Shown one piece after another: positions 3,131 through 25,452 of a stretch of 36,866 nt of DNA. The DNA comes from a virus. The DNA lies in IMG/VR virus record IMGVR_UViG_3300031722_000094, positions 1-36,866 of that record, one strand, 5' to 3'. The notes beneath the pieces are model-generated. The model ran no database searches. It was not told the DNA's origin and saw only the letters and a list, made by a program, of their open reading frames with translations. The first letter of the stretch is position 1. Every line of letters starts with the position of its first letter. The translations under genes and the position numbers were made by a program.

Positions 3131-3152
3131 GGGTGGGGCCGTAGCCCCACCC
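3131..3152 (-). terminator. GC-rich hairpin between the ssDNA-binding gene and polymerase gene
   Basis: A nine-base-pair perfect stem, GGGTGGGGC with GCCCCACCC, closes a UACG loop when read on the minus strand; C-UACG-G is an extra-stable tetraloop. The downstream tract is only weakly T-rich (GTCCGTCTTTCT), so this may be a leaky terminator or a 3'-end stabiliser rather than a full stop. It lies between the stop of the upstream gene at 3168 and the polymerase ribosome binding site, where it could lower polymerase expression relative to the binding protein. Confidence 0.6.
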
Positions 3153-9571: not shown

Positions 9572-10068
9572 CCCTCTTCCTCCAAACCGTAAACGATATC
9601 AATCATCTTTCCCCCAGAGAGTGTTTGTATTTCTACAATCTCATCCTCCCCCAACATCAACAAACTTATCACTAAATCTCCTTCTTCATCGATCAGTATA
9701 CCCGGCAAAGTGTCATCTGTCAAGTCGGTAGGAGAGATGTACTTCGATATGTCAATAGTATCAGGTGCTGTAGCTACAATGTCTCCTGCTCCTGTGGCGA
9801 GCAACTTCGCTGTCAGCTTCTTTGTAAGATCATCATCTTGTCCTGTGATCTGGTAGGCAAGGTTTACTCCACCGACCTGATCGTGTCTAGCAATACTGGC
9901 AAGCTCCCCAGCCCCGATCACTTCGAAAAGTGGGAGGATACTATTGGTACCATCATCAAGTGCCACAGAATCAATTGGGGTGGTATAGATAGGGAGCTTC
10001 ACAGATAGCTTGTTCCCTATGCGCTTGGCATCGAACATGAAGTATGTTGGTGTTGCTGTAACCATCAT
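9568..10068 (-). CDS. Tail protein of unknown fold
   Basis: A 166-residue protein following the hub region. GGAGG lies immediately before two adjacent ATG codons; ATG 10068 overlaps the upstream stop, while ATG 10065 has the more normal spacing. The N-terminal half alternates short strands (YFMFDAKRIGNKLSVKLPIY). The middle is acidic and threonine-rich (DISKYISPTDLTDDTLPG). The C-terminus (EGDLVISLLMLGEDEIVEIQ) is beta-strand like and ends GLEEEG. I do not recognise the family. Its tight coupling to both neighbours indicates a tail-tip component made with the hub. Confidence 0.65.
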   Translation of the reverse strand: MMVTATPTYFMFDAKRIGNKLSVKLPIYTTPIDSVALDDGTNSILPLFEVIGAGELASIARHDQVGGVNLAYQITGQDDDLTKKLTAKLLATGAGDIVATAPDTIDISKYISPTDLTDDTLPGILIDEEGDLVISLLMLGEDEIVEIQTLSGGKMIDIVYGLEEEG

Positions 10069-12479
10069 ACCTCCGTTGCGTATACGGTCATCGCTGTTCC
10101 ATCTGCGTTCTTATCATACGTAACATTATACACGACGTACTTCTTGGTTGGGTCAGAAATGACATTGTGCTGGTCACGAACATAATCAAATGTCACCAAG
10201 TCACCAAGCTGCAAGGTTGGGATTGGGAAGATGGCTGCACCGATGTTCTTGCGCTCACGAGAAGTCTTTTCTACGATCCAGTGCAATAGGTTCTCTGCTG
10301 CCCCTGTAGATTGAATGTAGTCTGTCTGCAATGAAAACTTCTTTTCACCGTACTTCATTCTGTGTGCACGGATACGGTTGTAAAGGTTTAGTTCCTTTGC
10401 GACTGCCCCCAAATCATCTGCCGTTGCCATCTTTGAGTCCCTACCCAAAAGGTCATCAACGGACAAGACCTTTGTGGAGTCCTGTGTGAATGTGATTCCA
10501 AGGATACGAAGGTAGTTGCCTGTATCCTCAGACAATGCCAAGATGTTATCCGTGCAGTTGAACACCATGAACTCTGCGCCATATGCAGTTGACTGGAATC
10601 CTGAAACTTCGAATCCACGGAATCCTGCTGGTGCTGGTGCAATCTGTGCTGTCATTGCTGGGTAAGCCTTGTCATATGTTACATTCATGAATGCAGCTTC
10701 ACGCATGATTGTTCCGAACTCATCGTAGAACATGTTGTACTTGGATGATCCTTCTCCAACACCATTGAAGTAGCTGCTACGCATGATTGCAGGAGTACCG
10801 CTCTTGCGTACCGCGTCAAAGCGTGAAGAGTTGTTGGTGATTTCTGCAAGTGAACCTGCTGGGCGCTGTACGCCTGCCTTGTTTCCGATTGCGTACATGT
10901 GCTCAAACATAATCTTCGCTCCACCACGAACGAACAGTGCGGTGCACGTTGACTCTGGGGAAGGGTTTGGGTCTTCAACAACAGCAATAAGGTTGTCATT
11001 CAAGTACAAGTTGAAGGTGTAAGCGGTTGTGTCGGAACCTGAGTATTCAACGCAAAGGTCATAGACCGTATTGTCTGCCTGAGCAATATTGCGCTGCATA
11101 CCTGTGAACTGTCCAGAATCGACAATCACAGAAGTAAGTCCAGCCCACAAACGGAATGGTGTGACTAGTGGTACAACTAGTCCAATCCACTTACCCGTCA
11201 TTGCTCCCGGTGCTACATTCAAGATAATGTCGTCACCCATAAGGTTCATGACGGTGAACTGTGTTGTTGGTGCTCCCGGTCCTGACAAAACTACTGTATC
11301 GTGCATCTTCAAGGTATTACCCTTGGCTGTTACGGTTGTTCCATTGACTGCCGTGATTGTTGCACCACGATCATCTGTCACTGTCTTGTAGAAGAATGCG
11401 TTGAATAGCTTGGGGGTTTCTTCCCAAGTCTTAACAATTGCTGCACCCCTGAATGGGTTCTCCAAAATGTATTCTGGAACTGAGGTATTCATCACAGTGA
11501 ACATTTGGTTCTCTGCAACAATAGGGAACTTGCTTCCCGAAATACCCTTGCTTGGAAGGTTAATGGTTGCCTGCTTTACAGCGACAAGTGCTGCTGAACC
11601 TGCTGTCCAGCTACCAGCAACATTGGTTGTTGCGACAGTTACTGTCCTTGCTCCTGTGTTAATGGCTGTTACTTGGTATGGACCTTCCATGTTGACTACG
11701 CCTGAAACGATGACGAAGTTTCCTACCGCTGCGTCACTCACTGCTGAGGTAGTAAATGTGGCAGAAGTTCCGTTGGAGGTAAGTCCTGAAATGGTTTCGT
11801 TTACTGGGATTCCAGCATCGTAGCCCTCAATGATTGACTTGGAGTTATCAAGTCCACCAATGGTTTCGTCTGCCCACTTGGCACCATCGTCTGCACCAGT
11901 GAAGAATGTTAGTCCACCCTTGTTGTACTCAGAAATTCCTGCGGGAACCTTCTCGAAAAGTAGGTTGTCGTAGAACACGGATGAGAATACTGCTGCCTGA
12001 ACAGGAAGCCTTAGGTATGTTTCTCCACCAGCGATTGTTACCAACTGCCACTGGTTTCCTGCTGACCTTGTTCCTACCGCTTCACCTTCTGCTGGGGCTT
12101 CTGCGAATACTGGCTGAACCTGTGCTCCCGAAACAACCTCAAAGCCACGAGTAACGATAAGCTTTTCTGTGGTTGCAGAAATATCGATTGAAACTGCGTA
12201 CTCTCCTGCTGGCATGTTTCCGATGTATGCCTGACCATAAGCATCACCATCACCCAAGCGCCAAAGCTCCAAGGACTTTCCATCAGTATCTGTGGCAAGC
12301 GTAGAGGACTGCTGTGCAATGATCTTTCCTACTGTTGATACTCGTGTCATTGGGTTGTAGTATTGGTTGCCCCCGAAGTAATAGCTTGGAGTAATGGCAC
12401 CAACGGCTGTGCTCTGAATAGTAAGGCCAGTACCGTAGTAAGAAATTGCGGACTTGCTGCTGGCAAACCTTACACTCAT
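10065..12479 (-). CDS. Downstream part of tail hub protein (804 codons after first ATG), same frame as upstream part
   Basis: Coding sequence that continues the frame of 12816-16676 after one TGA. ATG 12479 is the first possible start after that stop but has no ribosome site and lies within a domain, so independent initiation is doubtful. Residues 25-180 look like a carbohydrate-binding-module-type beta-sandwich (YYNPMTR to FYDNLLFEK). Two small beta modules follow at about 230-300 and 370-435 (GTSATFTTSAVSDAAVGNFV; GTTVTAKGNTLKMHDTVVL). A LamG-like stretch spans about 440-545. FYDEFGTIMREAAF at about 590 resembles FDEFNNFIVSMREY in the upstream part. The final 50 residues (GDLVTFDYV, then YVVYNVTYDKNADGTAMTV) look like the closing barrel of a phage tail hub. 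Together the two parts would make about 2200 residues. Confidence 0.85.
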   Translation of the reverse strand: MSVRFASSKSAISYYGTGLTIQSTAVGAITPSYYFGGNQYYNPMTRVSTVGKIIAQQSSTLATDTDGKSLELWRLGDGDAYGQAYIGNMPAGEYAVSIDISATTEKLIVTRGFEVVSGAQVQPVFAEAPAEGEAVGTRSAGNQWQLVTIAGGETYLRLPVQAAVFSSVFYDNLLFEKVPAGISEYNKGGLTFFTGADDGAKWADETIGGLDNSKSIIEGYDAGIPVNETISGLTSNGTSATFTTSAVSDAAVGNFVIVSGVVNMEGPYQVTAINTGARTVTVATTNVAGSWTAGSAALVAVKQATINLPSKGISGSKFPIVAENQMFTVMNTSVPEYILENPFRGAAIVKTWEETPKLFNAFFYKTVTDDRGATITAVNGTTVTAKGNTLKMHDTVVLSGPGAPTTQFTVMNLMGDDIILNVAPGAMTGKWIGLVVPLVTPFRLWAGLTSVIVDSGQFTGMQRNIAQADNTVYDLCVEYSGSDTTAYTFNLYLNDNLIAVVEDPNPSPESTCTALFVRGGAKIMFEHMYAIGNKAGVQRPAGSLAEITNNSSRFDAVRKSGTPAIMRSSYFNGVGEGSSKYNMFYDEFGTIMREAAFMNVTYDKAYPAMTAQIAPAPAGFRGFEVSGFQSTAYGAEFMVFNCTDNILALSEDTGNYLRILGITFTQDSTKVLSVDDLLGRDSKMATADDLGAVAKELNLYNRIRAHRMKYGEKKFSLQTDYIQSTGAAENLLHWIVEKTSRERKNIGAAIFPIPTLQLGDLVTFDYVRDQHNVISDPTKKYVVYNVTYDKNADGTAMTVYATEV

Positions 12480-12815
12480 GTGTATTGTGCCAACGAAGTT
12501 AATGTCAAGGATGCCGAAAACTCGTACCCAAGTGTTTGCAGGAAGTTCTGTCTTGGCTCCGATCTTTCTTTCTGTGCTCCAAGAGGTAGATGCCCTACCG
12601 TAAATCTGTACGGAAGTCTTCTTGTTGGACTTTACCCAGATTCCTACAGCGACCCTTGTACTACCGGTGATTGGTAGAGCAGAAGTGAAGTCTTCTCCTG
12701 AGCTTGGTGCGCTACCTGACCTGTCTGGATTTCCTGCAATGAGGAATCCACGCCTTGACCAAGACTTTGACCCAGAGCTATATGCAAGCTTTACGTTTGA
12801 TGGGGAATCTGCTGG
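12480..12815 (-). other. Open coding frame joining the two hub ORFs, no start codon
   Basis: This 336-base stretch is 112 codons in the same frame as both flanking ORFs, with no stop and no ATG, GTG or TTG in that frame. The translation has full protein character: VKLAYSSGSKSW, RVAVGIWVKSNKK, TSVQIYGRAS, then ELPANTWVRVFGILD. This is a beta-sandwich of carbohydrate-binding type that begins before the TGA (YVNPRFN at about residue 1222 of the upstream ORF) and ends after ATG 12479 (ISYYGTGLTIQ). It is therefore coding sequence rather than an intergenic gap, and can be translated only by passing the TGA or by an atypical start. Confidence 0.85.
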
Positions 12816-12818
12816 TCA
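12816..12818 (-). other. In-frame TGA inside the tail hub gene: candidate readthrough codon or nonsense mutation
   Basis: The codons read GGT TGA CCA. A C directly after UGA is the leakiest known stop context. The same frame is open for 1286 codons before and 916 after (112 plus 804). TGA is used as a genuine stop elsewhere in the window, for example at the junctions at 32620, 27983 and 10065, so a changed genetic code does not explain it. Confidence 0.8.
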
Positions 12819-15800
12819 ACCTGTTGTTGACCACACCTGTCCCTTGCTCACAAGCTTTCCTGCGTGCTTCTTGCTTGTCGAGTAAAGGCTTGGCTTCCAT
12901 CTTCCGAGGATTCCGTAAGAGTGATCTGCTGTCTGAGGGCTTTGAGCAAGGTTTGTAGCAAGGATTGCAGTTGCATCAACGTGATTGAACCTTGGGTTGA
13001 CGTATTCGTTGGCACGGTTTACCTGCAATGATGTTCCTGCAAGGCTTGCTGGCAACGAAGGCATGACCTTGGTAGCTGGGTTTGGAGTAAGCGCAAAGGA
13101 AATATCTTCTGTGGTTACTGCAATCGTGTCGATTTCAGATTCTACGTAGGACATTCCTGAGTAGCTGAATCCTGCACCCGCAAGTTCGTTGGTGAATGTT
13201 GCATTACGCTTGAGGATATTGAACTTGAATTCGTAGTTGCCGATCCAAGTTACGGTAACGGCTCCATTGATATCTGGAACGGAGGAACTTGTTTCGAAGT
13301 TATTCAATGTGATAACAGTTCCCACAGAATATCCTGCGCTTACCGTTGTTGATACTAGGGCTTCTCCCTTATCGTCTACAGAGATAGACTTGATCTGTGC
13401 AGAAGTAAGGTTGCTTCCTGTACCGCTCGTCTTTGTGATTGTCTGGCTCACATCGAAAGGCGTTGAGAAGATGAATGGGACGACTGGCAATTCGTAGGAT
13501 ACGTAGATTCCTGCAAGGGCAGTGACTACGAATGATCCGTTAATGTCAACATTGTCGATTGGGAATCCAGAAACAGTGATGCTGTCTCCCACAGCAAGAA
13601 CAGTTGATGCATTTGCCAAGGTAAGAGTAACGGTATCGTTAACGACTGTTGCTCCAACCATCTTTCCTAGGTCAGCCTCATTTGGGATAGATTCAAGTGT
13701 ATAGTCCCCAGAGGCAGTTGTTAGCGCTTGGAGTTCCATGAAGTATCCATGGTTGGTGCTTGGGTCAACAAGGATTCCAATACCTCCACCACCACCGGAA
13801 ATAGCTAGGTCGCTCAAAGGTGTCTTCGTAAATGGACGAGCAAGGGATTCTGCTCCTACTGGCTGCTGGTCTCCTGTAGAAAGGACTTCTCCAATGACGC
13901 GCATACGTGTACCGAATGCGTTGTACTTCTTGTTGTCCTGTGACATATCCCTGTAGGTGTAGGAAACGTGATCCTTACCTTCCTTGGTTCCTGAGAACAC
14001 AAGTGCTGAGGATTGCATCCTGTCAATCTTGCCCGTGTCTGGAACCATTGCGAGAGGATTGTTGATTTCGCTTGTGATGATTGATCCCTGCTGCGTCTTG
14101 AGCGTAGCTGAACCACCGAATCCTAGACCACCCGCAACGTCAGTTGTAAGGCTGTCTGGGTACTGGACAGTGGATGCTAGTGTAAACAGATAGTCAGAGT
14201 TCTGGTACATTCCTGTACGGTTGGTGTTCCAGTCTGATCCTAGCCCTGCAAGGTGCTCCTTAACATCTGTATTGAACTGCCCACGGCCATTGTCTTCGAT
14301 GATACCGGGCACGAGTTGCGCACCGTTGGTTCCTGAAATGAAGTCTGGGCTTGAGTAGATGCGAATAAGTCCTGTTGGAAAAATCCTACCGTTGAATGGC
14401 AAGCTCAAGAAGTAGTCTTGGTACTCATCTGCGTTGTGAATCCATGCGAGCTTCTGGCTACGTACACCCTGATTGTTTTGTGCCGTAATGGAGAACTGTA
14501 CAGCATCGTACTTGATGACTTCTCCATTTGCCCAAAGGTAACCGTTATATCCAGAGTAGTAGTTGATTGAATCCCCAACATTGATTGTGTTGTTGAAGAT
14601 TACCCCACCCTGCACACTTGGTAGGTCTGCGGACAAGTCTGTTGACAATGGGAATGCACTGAGGGCAAATGCTGACTGCTCAGCTACAGAACCATTCTGT
14701 CCCTTTGTGTTTTCCTTTCCTGCAACTTCCCAGACCATTATGGGAGCGTAGTACCAAGTCTTTTCGCTATCCTGATACAAGGATTGGCTAAGTCTTGATG
14801 CACGCTGAATGTAACGCTTGGTGAATGTGATATCGCCAGCATTGAATACGTCCTTGGATGCAGAAGAAATCTGCTGGATGTTTGCAATTCCATCTACAGA
14901 GTCATTTCCCCTGAGCATGAAATCTGTGTCCCTTGACAATGTGTCTGGCAATGCGTACTCGCGCATGGATACAATGAAGTTGTTGAACTCATCGAAGTAC
15001 ATTGCTGACTGGGTTGCCTGACTCAAGCTGGAAAGAACGTCTGCAACGCTTGTGTCTGGTGTCACAAAGAAGTAGGGAATTACAGGCTCAGTAGCATCTG
15101 GGCTACGAAGGAATGCATAGTTGCCGAAGCCAATGTTGTCCAGTAATACCATGATGATACGGCTGAGGCTAACATCCTTTAGCATGATCTGTGGAGCCTT
15201 GAACTTTTCGAACATGGCAAAGTCATCACGAAGCTCTAGGCTTACTGCGTCTGGTGAATTGTTGATACGTGGGGATGCTTCTGACGACAATACCTTTAGT
15301 GGTACGGTGTACTTCTTGCCGTTCACATTATAGATAGTTTCGGAAAAACTGAACTTAGTTTCTGACTGAACGTAACCTGCGATAACGCTACCGTCGCCAG
15401 TTGCAAGATTAAGTGCAAAGTTGTCGTTGAGGGCAAAGTCATTGTCGCTCAACGTGATGTTTCCAGTACCGGCAACAAGGCTACCAACAGGAAGGCTTGA
15501 GTTACCAAGGTCTCCCATTGTCTTTGTGATGCTGAAACTTTGTGCGCGATCTGTCAAGTCGAATGTAAGCCTTGGGCTAAGTTCGATAAGTTCGAATGGT
15601 GTGTCCTTGAGGTTCATCGTGCTGACGACAATACGCAATCCATCAATAGTGTCGAACTCACGGTACTTGCGATTACCAATCTCTAGGTAGCTTGGTGGGT
15701 CCATGAGTGTCTTGATAAGGTGGCTAGCATTTACTGGGGACCAACCATATTCAAGGGTGAAGGTTTCCCATACCCCCGCAGAATTGATAACCCAAATGCT

Positions 15801-16676
15801 TCCCACAGTTGTACCGCTTGGAATAAGGAATGCGTCACCGAAGTCTTGGCTTGAGGCTTCTGGGAGCATTTCAACTGCGTCAACCTGACCCATCAATTCA
15901 AAGTCTTGTGCGTAAGCTGCGGGTAGCTTGATGCCATAACCAAGTTCTACATAACCATCTACGGGAACATTGCCAATGAAGTCATAAGCTGTCTTCCACA
16001 TGCCGCCCTTCAAAACTTGGACAGACCAAGCCTTAGGAGTACGCATATTGGTAGCACCGAAGAATGGGTCAGTGAACGTATTGGTTGACCTGTTGTCATC
16101 TCCCACATGTGTCTGCATCTTGACAACGATACGGTTAGCGGGGAGTGTTGCATTATAAGCAACGAATGGGGCAGCATCCTCAATAGTCTTGTTGGAATTG
16201 GAGATACCCTTCTGGACGGTTCCTTCCATGCGGAAGCTTGTCCAATACTTGAACTTGTCCTTTGGGGATGATACGTAGTAACGTGGACGGCGTGCACTTG
16301 GGATATCGTCATACTTCCTACCGGGGAAGTACATTGCCTTATTGATACCGGACCTTGGACGATTTGCACCAAAGCAATCCTGCAATGGGTAAAGACGAGC
16401 CAAGTTGTCATCGGTGTTGTGGAACTCGATCTGCGCTGCTGAGTCTGCATCTGCCCTTGGAGCTAGCGTTGAAATGTCGTAGGACACTGTAGCTCGCATC
16501 ATGCTATCAGGTGCTGGGTAAACTGAGGAAGCTGCGCTTGTCTGACTGTTGGTGTAGTTACCGATATCCTTGATGCGCTCAAGATCGTTCAGGTTGATTT
16601 CTCCAACTACCTTGGGAGTAGACCTGATAACGTCTGCGGTATCGAAATGCTTCTTTAGTTCGTCAGACTTAAACAC
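12816..16676 (-). CDS. Upstream part of tail hub / tail-tip protein (1286 codons to an in-frame TGA)
   Basis: A large tail-tip protein, probably the hub with attached beta modules. GTG 16676 overlaps the upstream stop by one base, with GGAGG seven bases ahead. The first about 480 residues are beta-rich. Residues about 495-575 (DVSLSRIIMVLLDNIGF, then SVADVLSSLSQATQSAMYFD and NNFIVSMREY) match the pattern of a phage baseplate-hub domain (gp27/gp44-like). Two small beta modules lie at about 1005-1070 (VTLTLANASTVLAVGDSITV) and 1095-1160 (VSAGYSVGTVITLNNF). From about 1222 (YVNPRFN) a carbohydrate-binding-type sandwich begins and is cut by TGA after VWSTTG. Without readthrough this domain would be broken and the hub would lack its usual C-terminal barrel, which is encoded downstream in the same frame. 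Confidence 0.9.
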   Translation of the reverse strand: MFKSDELKKHFDTADVIRSTPKVVGEINLNDLERIKDIGNYTNSQTSAASSVYPAPDSMMRATVSYDISTLAPRADADSAAQIEFHNTDDNLARLYPLQDCFGANRPRSGINKAMYFPGRKYDDIPSARRPRYYVSSPKDKFKYWTSFRMEGTVQKGISNSNKTIEDAAPFVAYNATLPANRIVVKMQTHVGDDNRSTNTFTDPFFGATNMRTPKAWSVQVLKGGMWKTAYDFIGNVPVDGYVELGYGIKLPAAYAQDFELMGQVDAVEMLPEASSQDFGDAFLIPSGTTVGSIWVINSAGVWETFTLEYGWSPVNASHLIKTLMDPPSYLEIGNRKYREFDTIDGLRIVVSTMNLKDTPFELIELSPRLTFDLTDRAQSFSITKTMGDLGNSSLPVGSLVAGTGNITLSDNDFALNDNFALNLATGDGSVIAGYVQSETKFSFSETIYNVNGKKYTVPLKVLSSEASPRINNSPDAVSLELRDDFAMFEKFKAPQIMLKDVSLSRIIMVLLDNIGFGNYAFLRSPDATEPVIPYFFVTPDTSVADVLSSLSQATQSAMYFDEFNNFIVSMREYALPDTLSRDTDFMLRGNDSVDGIANIQQISSASKDVFNAGDITFTKRYIQRASRLSQSLYQDSEKTWYYAPIMVWEVAGKENTKGQNGSVAEQSAFALSAFPLSTDLSADLPSVQGGVIFNNTINVGDSINYYSGYNGYLWANGEVIKYDAVQFSITAQNNQGVRSQKLAWIHNADEYQDYFLSLPFNGRIFPTGLIRIYSSPDFISGTNGAQLVPGIIEDNGRGQFNTDVKEHLAGLGSDWNTNRTGMYQNSDYLFTLASTVQYPDSLTTDVAGGLGFGGSATLKTQQGSIITSEINNPLAMVPDTGKIDRMQSSALVFSGTKEGKDHVSYTYRDMSQDNKKYNAFGTRMRVIGEVLSTGDQQPVGAESLARPFTKTPLSDLAISGGGGGIGILVDPSTNHGYFMELQALTTASGDYTLESIPNEADLGKMVGATVVNDTVTLTLANASTVLAVGDSITVSGFPIDNVDINGSFVVTALAGIYVSYELPVVPFIFSTPFDVSQTITKTSGTGSNLTSAQIKSISVDDKGEALVSTTVSAGYSVGTVITLNNFETSSSVPDINGAVTVTWIGNYEFKFNILKRNATFTNELAGAGFSYSGMSYVESEIDTIAVTTEDISFALTPNPATKVMPSLPASLAGTSLQVNRANEYVNPRFNHVDATAILATNLAQSPQTADHSYGILGRWKPSLYSTSKKHAGKLVSKGQVWSTTG

Positions 16677-17257
16677 TAAACTTCCTCCAACGCCATATCG
16701 ACGTTCCAGAAGTCATATGCTCCACGCTTGTTTAGCGTCATGCTAAAGCTGGTGAAATACATCTTGACTTCCCTCACGTATCTGTTGAGTGGCGTTGCTG
16801 GCAAAACTGATCCTCGGTATGCGTCATCGTACGACATATACACGTAGAATGGCTCAGGATGATTTTCATACCACTGGCTTATAAGTATAGCAGGGGCGGC
16901 ATTGTCTGCAAGGTACATTGTTCCTACTGGAATCTGCATACCGTCTATCCAATCCATACCGCCCGAAGCAAGCCTTGAAGGCAAGTTCTCCCAAGAGGTA
17001 GAGAGGGTAAGCTTATCTGCTGTCCAGTAGGAACGTGACCTACCGTTGATCATTCTGTTTCGAGATTCGATACGGTTTCTTCCAAGACTGATGGGCGCAC
17101 GGGAATGGTCGGGAAGGACGATAGCCTCGTCTTTGCTTTCGTCTAGGTCAGTCGGTGCCAAATACTGCTGGTTCGATTCTGAATAGGAAAACTTCCTGTC
17201 GGAAAAGACTAATGCCTGTGGGCGACTGAACGTTCTATGGTTATCCAGAACGAACAT
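16676..17257 (-). CDS. Distal tail protein (Dit-like)
   Basis: A 193-residue protein between tape measure and hub, the classical place of the distal tail protein that forms the ring joining tail tube and tip. AAGGAG lies ten bases before ATG 17257, and the gene follows the tape measure by three bases. The beta-rich content (RSYWTADKLTLSTSWENLPS, EPFYVYMSYDDAYR, VKMYFTSFSMTLNKRGAYDFWNVDMALEEV) fits a Dit N-terminal barrel; the last segment resembles the final strands of the Dit/tube fold, which end in an acidic residue run. No insertion large enough for a carbohydrate-binding domain is present. Assignment is mainly by position and strand pattern. Confidence 0.7.
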   Translation of the reverse strand: MFVLDNHRTFSRPQALVFSDRKFSYSESNQQYLAPTDLDESKDEAIVLPDHSRAPISLGRNRIESRNRMINGRSRSYWTADKLTLSTSWENLPSRLASGGMDWIDGMQIPVGTMYLADNAAPAILISQWYENHPEPFYVYMSYDDAYRGSVLPATPLNRYVREVKMYFTSFSMTLNKRGAYDFWNVDMALEEV

Positions 17258-17260
17258 TGA

Positions 17261-20200
17261 TCAGTAACTCCTTAATTGTCCTTGTTGCATACCCTTGATC
17301 TTTGTGATAACGGTATTTGCAATATCGTCGGCAGAAGATGGGCTGCTTGCGTGAACTTCTACTCTGTACTCATTATACACTGTGGAGCTATTGTCCGAAG
17401 ATACTGGCTTGATACTTGAAGCATCATTTGGAATGCTGAATGAAGGCATTGAATACTTGTCGTAGAACCCAGCCATGTTTCCGCTCAAAGCTGCCTTGTT
17501 CAATGCAAGCAAGCGCTTTGATTCGTACTTGTTCGTCAAAGCCTCAGAAACAGTTACGCCCTCACCAGAACGGAGCATCGTTGGAACATTGTCCCCCATT
17601 GCTACTCCACGGAAGCCGGGAAGGATTCCTCCTCGTGCTGCGTGCTGGAAGACTGCGTTCTTAAGGAACCAGTTCTTTGTGTCGAAGTAAGACTTTGGTG
17701 GGTTACCCGTATAGTCAACTTCACGTCCAGTCTTGTTGTTAACGAAGGTGTACTTGATCTTGAACATAGCCTTAAGCCTGTTAAGCTCGCCCTTGATCTT
17801 GTCAATGTTGCCCTTCCAAGCAGAGTACATTCCTGCTGCCGCTGTCTTTGCGGCAGAACCAACAGAAGATGTTGTACCCTTCAATGTCTTCATGGCATTA
17901 TTGACCTTGCTGTCGTAGTCAAGCTGCTTACGCTTGGCATCGATGATAGCCTTCTCACGAGAAATCTGGTCCTTAACGTCACCGAGGATATCCTCAAGCA
18001 ATGCCTTCTGCTTTTCAAGAGGCTTGATCTTCTGGTCCTGAATGTCCTTGATCTTCTTCTCGTATCCCCAGATTTCATTGGTAAGGTCACGCAATGCTGG
18101 GGCAAAGTCATCAATAAGCTTCTGCCAAGTGGAAACCTGTACATCACGCTGAACTTCAAGCTGGCGAATGTGCTCAGCATTCTTTGCGATGATATCTGAG
18201 ATTGCCTGTAGCTCAACCTTGTAGCTGTTCTCAATAAGAGTCTTCTGCTGGTTGAGAGAATCAAGCTGCCTGTTGAGAGCGTCAACACCCTTCTGGATTG
18301 CGTCCTTACGCTTCTCAAGCAATGAGTTCTGATCGTCAAGAGTCTTGGACTGTCCCTCAAGTGGAGACTTGGAAGCCTCTAGACCCTTTGTCTGTAGCTT
18401 GCTGCTGCTGCTAGCAGATGTGGACTGAGCACCCATCATAGCTGATGCTGCGGCTCCTGCGTCACCTGTTGATAGTGCAGATGCAAGGTCTAGCTGTGCA
18501 CGCTGCTGGTCAGCAATAATATCGTTAAGGTCTTGCACTTCCTGCAATGCTGCGATCTGGTCATCGATTGCCTGAACCTGTAGGTCAATCAAATCCTTGG
18601 ACGCTGTGTTCTTCTCAATCTGAGTATCCATCATGGAAATCTGCTGCTGTGCAGCAAAGTCAGCAATGGCAATCTGGTTCTCTAGGGCTGTGATCTGTAG
18701 CTCTACCCCGTTTAGAGCAGAGTCACGCTGAGCCTCAAGTGTGTCAGACTGATCCTGCAAGGCAGCATTGGAAGCCTCAATTGGCTTAAGCTGCTTGTCG
18801 AATGCCTCATTTACCTTGTCAATTTCCTGCTGGTAAAGCTCAGCCTTACGATTGATTTCGTCTTGCTTATCATTGAGGTCGTCAAGCTTATCGTTAAGAG
18901 GATCAATCTGGTTGCGGTTGATATCTTCAATAGTCTCATCGATCTGCTGCATTGCGTACTCAACATCGGCAGCATTCTTCATCGTGATCTTTAGACCACT
19001 AATTTCGAATGTCATGGAACCGAAGCGCTTTGTCAAAGCATTCTGAATCTTCTTGTCTTCGGTCTTGTCAATCTTAACCTCTGCCAAGTCTAGACGTGCA
19101 TTCGCCTTTGCAATCTTGTCGGACTTCTTATCATACTTGGACTGCTTAGGAGCACCACCGCCACCACCGCTAGAAGACTTCTTTGGTGCACCGGCTGGCT
19201 TCTGCCCCTGTGCTGCTGTTAGCTGAGCCTCAAGTGCTGAAATCTTTGATGCGTTAGGGTTGTCTGGGATAACTGCTGGACCCATGCTAAGGGTAGCCAT
19301 AAGACGCTGGTACTCTGCTGTCTGTGGAGCAAGAAGCATGTTTCCATCCTTGACTGCCGCAGCAACACCCGCTAGCTGTGCATTGACTCCATCGATAAGT
19401 CCTTGGTCACCAGAACCTGCAACACGCAAAAGGTTAAGCATATCCTTGCTGTCAGTGATACCGTTGGCAAATGTAGCTGCCTGATCATTAAGTGCAGGGA
19501 ATGCTGTAAGCATTGGGGTCATTGCTCCACGAAGAGTCTCTTGACCGGCTGCACCCATCTTGTCAATAGCTGGTGCAAGTAGGTCCATGGACTTCTTGTA
19601 TTCGTCAGCGGTGATCTTTCCTGATGCATATTCTGCTGACACAAGTTGCATGTATGAAGTAATGGATGCTGACGAAGCTGCAACAGTTCGTGCGTACTTA
19701 TCGGTGTCATCCTTTGTTGCACCGGTAGCGTCAGAAAGTTCATTCTGTGCAATAGAAGCTGCGTAGGTTGCGTCGTTAGCCTTGGAGAGTGCATCGTCAC
19801 GGGCCTTCTGTGCCTTGGTAACGTCCTTCTCGTCAACGCTCTGGTCCTTTAGTACCTCGTCATACTTCTTCTGTGCCTTGGCAGAAAGCTCAGACAACCT
19901 AGTAGATTCAGCCTTGGCAGCATTAAGCTTCTTGAGCTTTTCTCCCTGATCAGCCAATCCCTTAGTGCTTGCTGAGTTAAGGTCGCTACTAAGCTTTGTA
20001 CCCAAGTCCTTTGACATTTGCTTGAAGTCAACCTTGCCGTCCTTGCCGACAAGCTTAGTTACCCTAGCTGCAACGTCTACGAAGATTTCGTGCTTACCTG
20101 CTAGAGTAGAAATCTGCTCGATGATGCTATTGGCAACCTTGACTGGTGCTCCCTGAGCCATAAGGTCCATGAACATAGAGTTGAACAGTGTGGATGCCTC

Positions 20201-23200
20201 AGCCTTGGAAGCATTCTTTGCTACGTCGATCTGAGTCTTGAAGGTATCTGGGTTATCCTTGATGTAGGACTGAGCAGTAGCTGCCTGAGTTCTACCCTCG
20301 ACAGAAGTGTCAGATGCCTTTACACCAAAACCACTTGTGCGTGGAGTGAAGTTTAGCGCTGCACCCATTCCCTGAATTGCATCGGCAGAGAACTTAGCGG
20401 CTTCTCCCAATTCCTTGATATGCTTCTGCTGACGCTGGTAAGCATCGTAGACCAACCAAGCAACACCAGCCACAGCGGCAAGTCCAGCAATGACAAGTCC
20501 TGCTGGGGAAACAAGTGCACCCAATGCACCAGCGGCAAGTGGTCCAGCACTAAGAAGAGGAGTGAATGCTGCTGCAATTCTTGTTCCCTTAAGTAGCGCA
20601 CCCACACCACTGAATGCTTGAAGTCCCATGGATGCCATCATAAGGTTCTGAGAGAACTCACCAACCTGACCGGGAACAAAGCTCAATGCCATAGATAGAG
20701 CACTGACAGAGGACATAATTCCTTGGAACTTACCCTGACTAATTCCTCCGCTACCCGCAGCTACAACTGGGCCTTCACGAAGACTTCCGACTGTGCCAGT
20801 ACGCTTAACTGCACTAGTAAGAATCTTCGTTGCTTCGCTAAGCTGACCTGATGCAATTACTGCTCCACCAAGGACACCATCACTAAGGTTGGTAACTGCC
20901 TTTGCTGGGGAATGAACTCCCAGAACTTCTGCTGCCTTGCCTACTGTTGCACCAGCTTGTGCCATGCCAGCGGCTAGACCAGCGGTAGCTGCCTCAACAA
21001 GCTTCTTTCCTGCGGCTTCTGCAAGCTTGGTAACTTCTACTGCTGCTCCTGTAGCCATTGGAGAAAGTCCATTGTATGCTGCCTTGCCCTTTGCGTAGAA
21101 CGCATCGACATTACCAGTATTAAGACTTGTCTGTGTAGCTACCCTAGTTCCTGCGGCAAGATATCCACTGCTAGCGTTTGTTCCTAGAGCAGTCTTTCCT
21201 ACCCCGCCAAGCTTAAGTGAAAGCTCTTCGTCAAGGGTGGCAATACCATTCATTGCCTGAATAGCCTTCTGTGTTGCTGGGTGCCAACCCTTTTCGAAGT
21301 TGTCCATCTCAGCAACGAAGTCTTCTAGGCTTAGTCCTGCAAGCTTAGACATTTCAAGCATAAGCTTGGAGTCACGAGGAATTTCCTGAGCAATCTGCTC
21401 AACCCTGTTAAGGTACTGGTTGATTGCACCGTTATCTGGGGTAAGGTTTCCTGCCTGCCACATCTTTTGCCCGGCAGCATTTGTCTGCTTTGTTAGGTGG
21501 GCAGACTGAACGTTTGTCATACCGCCCATCTGTGCGGCTGAAACGTTCTTCCAGTTCTTAGCCATTTCAGCTTCAATGGCTACCTTCTGCTGCTGTAGAC
21601 GAGCACCATCCTCAGTCTTTGCAAAGTTTGCTGCGCGAAGTCTATAGTTCTCGGGAGCCTTGTAGCGTGTTCCGTCAAGCTGTGCCTTGGCAATATCCCT
21701 AACCTGCTGATTAGCTGACTGATTAAGTGCGGCAACAACCTTTGCTGTGCTGACCTTACCCTTAGCGGATAGTTCAGCGACAGCCTTGTTTGCCTCTTCA
21801 ATAGCTGCGGAACCGGCCTTCTCAATGGCAGCGAACAACTTTGTGATGCTGGCCTCAGACTTTGCGTGAACGTTGGAAGGCATGACAACTCTGTCAGTGT
21901 CTCTCTGTCCATTGATTCCCACAACACCATCAGCGAATCCACGAATCTTTGCACCAGCATTGATTGCCCTGAGGACTCCCTGATTTCCCTGTGTACCGCT
22001 CTTGGTTACAACAGACTCACCGGGCATTAGTGCTGCAAGTTCAGAGTCCCTATTTCCTGTGCCACCAACCATGCCGACACGGCCCTTAGCGAATCCCTTG
22101 ATCTTACCAATACGGAATCCTGCTGGGTTTTGCTGAATAGCTGACGATGCTGCCAATAGCATATTCTTGTAGGCACCAGCAAGCATGTTGACTTCTGCAC
22201 GCTGTACGGCAAGTGCTCCTGTGAGACCAGTGACCTTTCCTTCAAGGCTGGCTGCTGCTGCGGCGGTATCAAGCTCTGCCTCAGCCAAGTACATTGTGTC
22301 TTCGCCACCCTTACGGAAGCGTGCGAACATGTTGCCAATGTTGATACCGAACTTCATGATGTTACCGAACATGTTGGCGAACAAACCAACAGTCATTGTG
22401 ACTGCTGGCATGATGACTCCAACACCGGTAACAATGGCAGTGATGAATCCTTGAAGGACTGGATTGAGGTTGTTGAATCCGTTTGCTACGTTGGTAGCGA
22501 AGTCAAGAATAGGTGTAGCAATCTTTAGGAACTGCTCACCAATAGGAGCGATTGCTCCCTTGAGTCTTTCAAGGCTACCGGTGAACTTTACGTTGATTGC
22601 ATTCTCTACCTTGGAAAGTTCTGATTCGGAAAGCTTGGCAAGGCTAGATGTTGAAGCTCCAACAAGGTCCATAACCTTTGATGCCTGTGAACCATCACGG
22701 CTGAGGTTCTTGAACATTGCACCCATACGTGCGAACTGGAACTTACCGAATACCTTGACAAGTACCTGCTGCTGGTCAGACTCAGAAAGCTTCTTTAGGG
22801 CGTCACCGAACGATGTGACCATCCCCATAAGGTCGCCCTCGTTGTTCTTGGCGATGGACTCAAGGTTGATACCGAATGACTTGGCTTCGTCCTTTGCCTT
22901 CTGTGTTGGTGCAATCAATGATGCAAGGCTGGACTTAAGGGCGTTTGCTCCCTGTGATGCGGAAACTCCACCTTCACGCATTGCAGTCATGAATACTGCC
23001 AAGTCCTTAACGTCACCACCAAGACCCTTGATTACGGGAGCTACCTTAGGGATTGCTGTCGTAATGTCGTCCAGCGATGTTACCGTCTGGTTTTCAACGG
23101 CGTTAAGGAAGTCAATGGTGCTACCCAAGTCCTTAGAGGAAATGTTGAATGCGGACTGCAAGCTGATCGTTGTATCAAGTGCTTGGTTGCTGTCAATCTG

Positions 23201-24064
23201 ACCAAGGGTAGCAAGACGTGTTGCCTGAACTGTCTGAGCAGTTAGCTTCTGCCCCTGAAAACCTGCTGCTGCGGCCTTTGCTGACAAGTTGATTGTGTCA
23301 GAAATCTTGATTCCGTACTTGGTATACTCATCAGCTAGCTTGCGTACTCCGTTGTATGCAATGTCTGTTTCACCGATAGAAGTCATCGTGTCTCCGTAGA
23401 CACGCTTGAAGGCAACCATGGACTTTTCGATATCAATGAAAGCCTTGGCTGCCATTGTTCCGAAGATTGTTAGAGGTACGGTGAATCCCACCATAAGCTG
23501 ACGACCAGCCCACTGTGTATTCTTACCCCAGTTGATAAGACCTGTAGCACCGTTGCTCATGATCTTGTTGAATAGCTGCATACGCTGGGTAGCGATCTGT
23601 GCATCTGCACCCATTAGTTGCATTGGGCGAATAGCAAGAGCCTTGGTCATACCGTTCGCAGATTCACCAAGCGCTACATATTGTGTACTGAGACGCTTGA
23701 CCCTATCTTCGGCAAGGCCCATAATCTCCTTGTGCTGCTTGGAGAAAATGTTGTTGAACTTACCTGATGCTGCTGCACCATACGAAAAGTATTGACCAAG
23801 GCTCATCTTGCCCTTGTCAATTGTCTTACCTAGGCTACCAACGGATGTTTCTACGTTGGCGATGTGTGTAGAGAATGCCTTAGTTGCTTCTGCCTGTGAA
23901 GCAAATGTGCGAATAAGCTCTTGCTGCTTCTTTACTGCCGAAGAGTTTGTCGCAATTACAGACTGATTAAACTGTGAAATTCCAACTTGGAGTGCTCTCA
24001 GTTGATCAAGGGCAGACCTTGAGTCAATTTGTACACCAATGCCAGCCGTTACGTCCTGTGTCAT
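17261..24064 (-). CDS. Tape measure protein
   Basis: A 2267-residue protein that sets tail length; at about 0.15 nm per residue this predicts a tail near 340 nm. ATG 24064 has AGGAG six bases upstream. Residues about 200-520 are the TP901-type core (IEKSMVAFKRVYGDT, then KAAAAGFQGQ, AVENQTVTSLDDI and MREGGVSASQGANALKSSL). Hydrophobic segments lie at about 185-210, 535-570 and 1170-1205, the last with LVIAGLAAVAGVAWLVYDAY. A glycine-rich linker with five consecutive glycines lies near 1635, followed by long coiled coil to about 2060 (DIIADQQRAQLDLA and similar). Two related glycine-glutamate motifs occur, near 670 (DSELAALMPGESVV) and near 2155 (GDNVPTMLRSGEGVTVSEA). No peptidase or muramidase motif was recognised. 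The gene has its own candidate extended -10 promoter. Confidence 0.96.
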   Translation of the reverse strand: MTQDVTAGIGVQIDSRSALDQLRALQVGISQFNQSVIATNSSAVKKQQELIRTFASQAEATKAFSTHIANVETSVGSLGKTIDKGKMSLGQYFSYGAAASGKFNNIFSKQHKEIMGLAEDRVKRLSTQYVALGESANGMTKALAIRPMQLMGADAQIATQRMQLFNKIMSNGATGLINWGKNTQWAGRQLMVGFTVPLTIFGTMAAKAFIDIEKSMVAFKRVYGDTMTSIGETDIAYNGVRKLADEYTKYGIKISDTINLSAKAAAAGFQGQKLTAQTVQATRLATLGQIDSNQALDTTISLQSAFNISSKDLGSTIDFLNAVENQTVTSLDDITTAIPKVAPVIKGLGGDVKDLAVFMTAMREGGVSASQGANALKSSLASLIAPTQKAKDEAKSFGINLESIAKNNEGDLMGMVTSFGDALKKLSESDQQQVLVKVFGKFQFARMGAMFKNLSRDGSQASKVMDLVGASTSSLAKLSESELSKVENAINVKFTGSLERLKGAIAPIGEQFLKIATPILDFATNVANGFNNLNPVLQGFITAIVTGVGVIMPAVTMTVGLFANMFGNIMKFGINIGNMFARFRKGGEDTMYLAEAELDTAAAAASLEGKVTGLTGALAVQRAEVNMLAGAYKNMLLAASSAIQQNPAGFRIGKIKGFAKGRVGMVGGTGNRDSELAALMPGESVVTKSGTQGNQGVLRAINAGAKIRGFADGVVGINGQRDTDRVVMPSNVHAKSEASITKLFAAIEKAGSAAIEEANKAVAELSAKGKVSTAKVVAALNQSANQQVRDIAKAQLDGTRYKAPENYRLRAANFAKTEDGARLQQQKVAIEAEMAKNWKNVSAAQMGGMTNVQSAHLTKQTNAAGQKMWQAGNLTPDNGAINQYLNRVEQIAQEIPRDSKLMLEMSKLAGLSLEDFVAEMDNFEKGWHPATQKAIQAMNGIATLDEELSLKLGGVGKTALGTNASSGYLAAGTRVATQTSLNTGNVDAFYAKGKAAYNGLSPMATGAAVEVTKLAEAAGKKLVEAATAGLAAGMAQAGATVGKAAEVLGVHSPAKAVTNLSDGVLGGAVIASGQLSEATKILTSAVKRTGTVGSLREGPVVAAGSGGISQGKFQGIMSSVSALSMALSFVPGQVGEFSQNLMMASMGLQAFSGVGALLKGTRIAAAFTPLLSAGPLAAGALGALVSPAGLVIAGLAAVAGVAWLVYDAYQRQQKHIKELGEAAKFSADAIQGMGAALNFTPRTSGFGVKASDTSVEGRTQAATAQSYIKDNPDTFKTQIDVAKNASKAEASTLFNSMFMDLMAQGAPVKVANSIIEQISTLAGKHEIFVDVAARVTKLVGKDGKVDFKQMSKDLGTKLSSDLNSASTKGLADQGEKLKKLNAAKAESTRLSELSAKAQKKYDEVLKDQSVDEKDVTKAQKARDDALSKANDATYAASIAQNELSDATGATKDDTDKYARTVAASSASITSYMQLVSAEYASGKITADEYKKSMDLLAPAIDKMGAAGQETLRGAMTPMLTAFPALNDQAATFANGITDSKDMLNLLRVAGSGDQGLIDGVNAQLAGVAAAVKDGNMLLAPQTAEYQRLMATLSMGPAVIPDNPNASKISALEAQLTAAQGQKPAGAPKKSSSGGGGGAPKQSKYDKKSDKIAKANARLDLAEVKIDKTEDKKIQNALTKRFGSMTFEISGLKITMKNAADVEYAMQQIDETIEDINRNQIDPLNDKLDDLNDKQDEINRKAELYQQEIDKVNEAFDKQLKPIEASNAALQDQSDTLEAQRDSALNGVELQITALENQIAIADFAAQQQISMMDTQIEKNTASKDLIDLQVQAIDDQIAALQEVQDLNDIIADQQRAQLDLASALSTGDAGAAASAMMGAQSTSASSSSKLQTKGLEASKSPLEGQSKTLDDQNSLLEKRKDAIQKGVDALNRQLDSLNQQKTLIENSYKVELQAISDIIAKNAEHIRQLEVQRDVQVSTWQKLIDDFAPALRDLTNEIWGYEKKIKDIQDQKIKPLEKQKALLEDILGDVKDQISREKAIIDAKRKQLDYDSKVNNAMKTLKGTTSSVGSAAKTAAAGMYSAWKGNIDKIKGELNRLKAMFKIKYTFVNNKTGREVDYTGNPPKSYFDTKNWFLKNAVFQHAARGGILPGFRGVAMGDNVPTMLRSGEGVTVSEALTNKYESKRLLALNKAALSGNMAGFYDKYSMPSFSIPNDASSIKPVSSDNSSTVYNEYRVEVHASSPSSADDIANTVITKIKGMQQGQLRSY

Positions 24065-24095: not shown

Positions 24096-24769
24096 CTATT
24101 CTATGATTTCGTAATCCAGCCCCATACCAATACCGAATCCAAGCTTTTCTGCTGCTGCTCCTTGAAGCGACAAAATGTCGTTGCTTTGACCAGCTAGGCC
24201 GTGCTTTTCTAGAACCTTGTCCCTGTAGGAATCGAAGGTTACTTCTTCCTGTACGCCATTTTGCTCGTCAAGGTTTACTCCCTTGAGTGCCGCTTGGAAT
24301 TTCTTCATTTGATAATCGTCGTCATGCTTAGCGACGAGAACTGCGGTTAGCTCCTGCATGGAAAGTGACTCTTCTAGGTCTTGATAGTCCTTCCAGATTC
24401 CAAGCAGGAACGCTTCCGACTCCAACTTAACTAAGTCGGTGTCTTCCCAACTAGTTCCGCCGCTTACACGTTTCCCACAGCACGCATATCGATGCCTGCG
24501 GCTGCCTTGATCATTTCGTAGTAATTGTTCATATCAAGGTTGTCTTCGATCCACACCTTGTTTGCAAGTTCTGCATTCCACTGCTTGAGTGCAAGCACTA
24601 CACATGCGGTTAGTACGTCGAATGACTTGTCGTTGTCTTCCTGTACTGCGTCTAGCTTAGCAAACTCTTTCATGAACTTTCGTAGTCCTGCGATCTTAAG
24701 TGGTCGCATCTCAATCGTTACGCCGTCTCCTAGTTCTAGGGTTTCGGTTTCATACACACTTGTAGCCAT
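24096..24769 (-). CDS. Tail assembly chaperone, long -1 frameshift product (gpGT-like)
   Basis: The fusion form of the tail assembly chaperone, which helps tail tube subunits assemble on the tape measure. Translation begins at ATG 24769, shifts -1 at the GGGAAAC heptamer (24470-24476) and continues to the TAG at 24096-24098. It gives 100 residues of the first frame plus 124 of the second (RVSGGTSWEDTDLVKLESEA onwards), 224 in all. The second frame lacks a usable ribosome site for its only early start (TTG 24425) and is fully open back to the slip site, which supports frameshifting. The C-terminal part is helical (LLGIWKDYQDLEESLS, KKFQAALKGV). Position between major tail protein and tape measure is the standard one for lambda G/GT analogues. 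Confidence 0.88.
24464..24769 (-). CDS. Tail assembly chaperone, short product (gpG-like)
   Basis: The unshifted product: 101 residues from ATG 24769, with AAGGA before it, to TAA 24464. The N-terminus is beta-like (VYETETLELGDGVTIEMRPL) and residues 25-95 are helical (LRKFMKEFAKLDAVQ, NYYEMIKAAAGID), the usual layout of phage gpG analogues. In lambda the short form is made in large excess and only a few percent of ribosomes shift. The hairpin and promoter between the tail protein gene and this gene suggest it is expressed on a separate, perhaps lower, level than the tail tube protein. Confidence 0.88.
   Translation of the reverse strand: MATSVYETETLELGDGVTIEMRPLKIAGLRKFMKEFAKLDAVQEDNDKSFDVLTACVVLALKQWNAELANKVWIEDNLDMNNYYEMIKAAAGIDMRAVGNV
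24470..24476 (-). promoter_or_regulatory. -1 ribosomal frameshift site GGGAAAC
   Basis: In the first frame the codons are GTG GGA AAC GTG TAA. G GGA AAC is a canonical X-XXY-YYZ slippery heptamer, five codons inside the last part of the short frame with the stop one codon after it. Slipping by -1 continues CGT GTA AGC GGC into the second open frame. A six-base stem (CCGACT with AGTCGG) lies 30 bases downstream, probably too far to stimulate. Confidence 0.9.
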
Positions 24770-24858: not shown

Positions 24859-25452
24859 TCAGCCAATTACTCTGTCGATAATCTTTCCGTATGCACCTGT
24901 GTTGTCAGGAAGCAAACGGAAGTTGCAATCGAACTGAGAAGCTTCGTCGCGCTTTGCGTTGATAGATACGCTATCAACGGTCATTCCACGGTAAGCCATG
25001 TAGATACGCTCTGTTGGTGCTGCGGCAACAGAAGGTCCAACGGCAACCAAGCCCTTTTCGACTGGAGCGTCACCAAGAGCACCGGAGTTCAATGTCAAAG
25101 TTCCTGCTACAAGGTCTGCGGCTGGTGCAGAAATTGCAAGTACCAAGTTGTCCAAGGTTGCTTCTGAAAGAGTTGTCTTCATAGAAACCTGCATGGACTG
25201 CTTGAATAGACGTGCAACGTCAAGCTGTTGGTCAACCTTGACTTCACCGAAGTCAGGCTGGATTGATAGTTCAATACCGTTGGTCGTGTAACCAAGGTTA
25301 CGGAATGTTACTGCGGCAGATAGTGTTTCTACTGCCTTTGTTGCTACGACCCAAACTGGAAGATCGGCAGCGGCCATTGCGCCTGCCTTGAACATGAACA
25401 GCGCTGCGGCACCGACGATGATCTGCTTGGAGTCTCCACGGGTATAAGCCAT
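24859..25452 (-). CDS. Major tail protein (tail tube)
   Basis: A 197-residue protein that should polymerise into the tail tube. ATG 25452 follows AGAGGTGA. It lies just before the tail chaperones and tape measure, the canonical position. The sequence is beta-rich and begins MAYTRGDSKQIIVGAAALF. The middle (NGIELSIQPDFGEVKVDQQLDVARLF) carries the start-of-tube pattern of many siphovirus tail proteins, in which an acidic Pro-containing strand precedes a DQ motif. The C-terminus (SQFDCNFRLLPDNTGAYGKIIDRVIG) is a typical final strand and tail. Flanking it are a candidate extended -10 promoter upstream and a strong hairpin downstream, which together would give it its own abundant mRNA. Confidence 0.85.
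   Translation of the reverse strand: MAYTRGDSKQIIVGAAALFMFKAGAMAAADLPVWVVATKAVETLSAAVTFRNLGYTTNGIELSIQPDFGEVKVDQQLDVARLFKQSMQVSMKTTLSEATLDNLVLAISAPAADLVAGTLTLNSGALGDAPVEKGLVAVGPSVAAAPTERIYMAYRGMTVDSVSINAKRDEASQFDCNFRLLPDNTGAYGKIIDRVIG

Follow-up and report, generated by a model that had tools for sequence, protein, structure and literature searches.

The long tail hub gene on the minus strand of the window is interrupted by one in-frame TGA (12816–12818), and this stop is very probably a base or consensus error, or a recent nonsense variant, within one long gene. By the window we mean the whole stretch of DNA that was analysed, a complete virus record of 36,866 bases which, judged from its relatives, is a fragment of a larger genome. 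A sequence-only reading of this DNA had put programmed readthrough of the stop in its title, with a nonsense mutation or base error in the split gene as the other option. It is the second option that our data favor: the sister genes are intact, the stop is not conserved and there is no decay downstream of it. Programmed readthrough gained no support; the unconserved stop lies in a variable loop of an insertion, in an ordinary TGAC context, and no specific cis-acting signal was found.

Gene Organization

The 5' part of the hub gene (12816–16676, minus strand; phrog_10359, E=5.9e-42) starts at GTG 16676, which is preceded by GGAGGAAG, a good ribosome site, and runs for 1286 codons to the TGA. 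This TGA (minus strand) stands in the context GGT TGA CCA at residue 1287 of the read-through frame, which then remains open for 916 codons, up to the TGA at 10067–10065 (minus). Mechanical ORF calling places an 804-codon ORF, starting with ATG, at 10065–12479 (minus), which is in fact the 3' part of the hub gene, and leaves a linking stretch of 112 codons with a coding-like composition (12480–12815, minus). Re-computation confirmed, as had been described earlier, that the two ORFs share one frame and that they are separated by this lone TGA and by 112 codons without ATG, GTG or TTG. The codon score of the linking codons is +0.292 per codon, compared to +0.291 in the 100 codons before them and +0.315 in the 100 codons after them, and all five remaining frames score negative. 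The other long open runs that follow stops in the window (the three longest were checked) are accounted for by a neighbour gene whose start lies no more than a few codons from the stop.

It is highly improbable that the two halves are separate polypeptides, the second being begun at ATG 12479 either independently or through reinitiation. The 804-codon ORF does come out of mechanical ORF calling, but 112 coding-like in-frame codons lie upstream of its ATG, the protein is a single polypeptide in the relatives, and no Shine-Dalgarno-like site was found upstream of ATG 12479, in agreement with the earlier remark that this start has no ribosome site. As judged from sequence, both halves are a single gene, since they are colinear with the single-ORF minor tail protein of known phages and with the single ORFs of the sister lineages.

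Upstream of the hub gene lies the tape measure gene (17261–24064, minus; PhageMin_Tail, phrog_10030), and between the two there is an intact gene for a small tail protein (16676–17257, minus). Within the tape measure gene, 47 bases (23490–23536) are 94% identical to the Streptomyces phages TunaTartare and Sham, while the rest of the gene has no near DNA match. Two small genes (24096–24769, minus; phrog_10474 and phrog_10504) are located between the tape measure and an Ig-domain major tail-like gene (24859–25452), where tail assembly chaperones are usually encoded. Inside the major tail-like gene, in its 3' part, there is a hairpin, CGTTGATAG...CTATCAACG (24957–24979, minus). A GC-rich hairpin, GGGTGGGGC/GGCCCCACCC (3131–3152, minus), is found in the DNA polymerase ORF, just after the GTG that is called as its start; this hairpin could be a terminator or a regulatory hairpin, in which case the true start of the polymerase would be further downstream.

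The Hub Protein

The phrog_10359 profile, a 'minor tail protein', matches both halves of the gene colinearly. Phage genes of this group, from Stanwilliamsviridae Streptomyces phages and from Rhodococcus phage Trina, likewise follow the tape measure and a small tail gene, and their N- and C-terminal homology to the window hub is colinear at 22–27% identity. Unlike the window gene, they are single ORFs of 1063–1346 amino acids, with neither an insertion of ~800 residues nor the stop. The virus is a metagenomic relative of the tailed actinophages.

Searches of the hub protein in Pfam and sequence searches in the PDB gave no match. An AlphaFold model was made for a relative: it covers the hub part of L010 and was built from a 58-sequence alignment with a pLDDT of 65.7. 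In Foldseek this model resembles VgrG, Mu gp44 and phage baseplate hubs (1wru, 3d37, 4mtk and 9mlp, at E 1e-6 to 3e-8, with a TM to target of at most 0.47), so that the hub call rests on fold besides synteny. The product of the gene is a central hub like gp27, VgrG and Mu gp44, its fold being predicted from the L010 model. The earlier assignment to the tail hub thus holds, by the phrog_10359 match of both halves and by the gp27/VgrG/Mu gp44-type fold predicted for the relative. The window hub differs from the gp27, VgrG and Mu gp44 hubs by the jelly-roll-like and other insertions within it.

Relatives of the Hub Gene

Single-sequence searches of viral contigs found no relatives whereas alignment-based scans succeeded, giving 165 loci in IMG/VR, some of which come from one contig. 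A search of genome contigs revealed no relative, and exact-pattern searches did not find a second record of the window virus in the collection searched, which may leave out near-identical records. The N- and C-terminal parts of the protein lie within one ORF in 159 loci, which correspond to 138 distinct proteins and include three Streptomyces phage loci, and no further stop or frameshift was seen between the two parts in these loci. None of them carries a stop where the window has its TGA, or close to that place. Looking up the residue aligned with the TGA, as the sequence-only reading had proposed, we found sense codons or an alignment gap in all sisters.

Two sister lineages carry the long form of the gene. 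In L088, L089 and L091 it is complete, with 2241 codons in a single ORF, and in L092 the same form is ended by the contig edge. In L008 and L090 it is incomplete, reaching 1986 codons up to the contig end, with 51% identity to the window (BLASTP). Other window genes that can be compared with relatives match over essentially their full length, except for the tape measure, which is divergent and aligns to relatives only in its N-terminal 1345 residues.

The TGA is located inside a clade-specific insertion of ~800 residues (about residues 985–1800; approximately 11277–13724, minus) that splits the conserved hub frame in the jelly-roll-like region of the hub. This insertion is present only in the window, in L008/L090 and in the L088-type phages (L088, L089, L091 and L092), and is missing from the 1456-amino acid relative L010 and from the Streptomyces phages. 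The position of the TGA itself is a hypervariable loop with several indels among the sisters. The alignment gap in L008 had suggested a 21-nt insertion at this place, but L088 has residues there and this candidate was rejected. The linking codons had been described earlier as a convincing beta-sandwich that contains the stop. This was only partly upheld: strands are predicted and there are weak CBM-like matches, but the strands are mostly past the stop and the predicted structure of residues 1195–1600 is poor (pLDDT 44). The conserved C-terminal hub part (10068–10724, minus; 62–63% identity to L088) is located entirely downstream of the TGA.

Based on these comparisons, the ancestral and presumably functional product would be an uninterrupted protein of ~2200 residues. 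A product of 1286 residues would break off within the insertion, losing its second half, and would have none of the conserved C-terminal hub part. This C terminus is probably essential, and a fixed nonsense codon should therefore be lethal; a virus with the stop fixed would depend on readthrough or suppression.

Sequence Context of the Stop

One possible option is that the virus or its host decodes TGA as an amino acid, by a code change or a suppressor tRNA. The frame is open but for one in-frame TGA, as this option would have it, but TGA ends more genes of the window than any other stop (15 of 27), several of these genes overlapping the next start, and no tRNA gene was found in the 36,866 bases, which cover only the smaller part of the genome. 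A code change is largely refuted by these terminators, and decoding of TGA in either way is extremely improbable. In six of the 15 genes the terminator is TGAC, as at the internal stop; in this phage TGAC thus terminates genes in the ordinary way.

Another option is programmed, functional UGA readthrough in this lineage only, by which the hub would be made in a short form and, more rarely, at full length. UGA is in general the leakiest stop (PMC5289835), and the frame downstream of the TGA is intact and evolves at the rate of the sister gene. It had been claimed that UGA followed by C is the leakiest context; the part on UGA stands, but the strong +4C effect on readthrough is attributed mainly to yeast, whereas in E. 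coli it is +4A that favours misreading of UGA by tRNA-Trp (PMC5289835). Against readthrough, the TGAC context is shared with ordinary terminators of this phage, and none of the relatives, both sister lineages included, has the stop. RNA folding downstream of the stop is no better than in shuffled sequences (z -0.5 and -1.1), and an Rfam search at the stop found no known RNA element.

The stop also lies in a hairpin, which would speak for readthrough. A perfect 8-bp inverted repeat with a 5-nt loop (12813–12833, minus) spans exactly seven in-frame codons, and the 85-nt stretch around the stop reaches a z of -2.3, which is owed to this hairpin, with the TGA in its 3' arm. Yet hairpins of this 8-bp class are as frequent in the window as expected by chance (4 observed, 3.9 expected), and despite the z of -2.3 the hairpin was rejected as a readthrough signal. 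In the sister genes there is no comparable hairpin. The probability that a given codon falls in such a hairpin is ~0.2–0.3%, a figure that belongs to a feature noticed post hoc; with this reserve, the placement counts against an error or a variant.

The inverted repeat may also bear on how a nonsense variant was made. Quasipalindrome template switching, a known mechanism (PMC7202029, PMC8604942), would create the stop in one event by copying the 3' arm of the repeat from the 5' arm, and the perfect repeat does span the TGA. It would be a mechanism for the nonsense variant and not an alternative to it. Since hairpins of such size occur at chance frequency and no close relative preserves the state before the event, we consider this origin very unlikely.

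Age of the Stop and Lesions in Other Genomes

The part downstream of the stop is under coding constraint, as seen from its codon scores, its 62–63% C-terminal identity to L088 and a rate that is not raised. Trees were built for three segments. Past the stop, the branch of the window measures 0.361 compared to 0.367 for the intact sister L088, and in the two upstream segments the values are 0.307 and 0.391 for the window compared to 0.431 and 0.390 for L088. No second lesion was found in the 916 codons past the stop. A downstream part that is coding-like and evolves no faster than the intact sister indicates that the stop is very recent, is an error, or is read through; the constraint fits readthrough, a recent lesion and an error equally well.

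Similar lesions are found in other genomes. The hub gene of L073 has, like the window, a single in-frame TGA in an otherwise intact ORF (L073:11024–11026), where relatives that are ~97–100% identical are open with a sense codon; it differs from the window TGA in being near the hub C terminus and in a TGA-T context. In L136 the hub gene is spread over two frames (937 and 582 codons), apparently by a frameshift at about 2860–2880. These two cases show that isolated lesions do occur, at a frequency of about 1–2% of the hub homologues gathered from these contigs. Outside the hub gene, an in-frame TAA in L057 (12512–12514) cuts a conserved gene into 345 and 60 codons, while the same gene is a single ORF in 33 relatives, and L049 holds a borderline case of a split gene.

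Discussion

We infer that an error or a recent mutation is the most likely and most economical reading, over functional recoding. A single isolated nonsense codon in an assembly would then be either a base or consensus error of the metagenome or a recent variant in the sampled population. What counts against it, besides the hairpin and the lethality to be expected of a fixed stop, is that the lone lesion in 36.9 kb is a UGA, which also fits a gene with a leaky stop.

Readthrough has a known precedent in Q-beta, where the A1 protein is made by reading through a UGA about once in 15 times (PMC8067240). In both A1 and the window, an in-frame UGA in a virion protein gene is followed by a long open extension. 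Yet in Q-beta the coat protein is already complete at the stop, the extended product being a minor form, whereas in the window the stop interrupts the hub protein internally, and the relatives of the window are without the stop. A hub of the gp27/VgrG type is made of whole chains, and a majority form truncated before the conserved C-terminal part is therefore hard to explain. Functional readthrough confined to this lineage is thus unlikely. That it would supply one phage with truncated and full-length hubs, from a stop that arose in an exposed loop of the insertion, is similarly unlikely.

Automatic annotation of this contig would give two minor tail genes instead of one. The case shows that both homologues and reads are required before a solitary in-frame stop in a metagenomic contig is taken for recoding. 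If readthrough were true after all, this would be an unusual tail hub among dsDNA phages, with two forms made from one gene.
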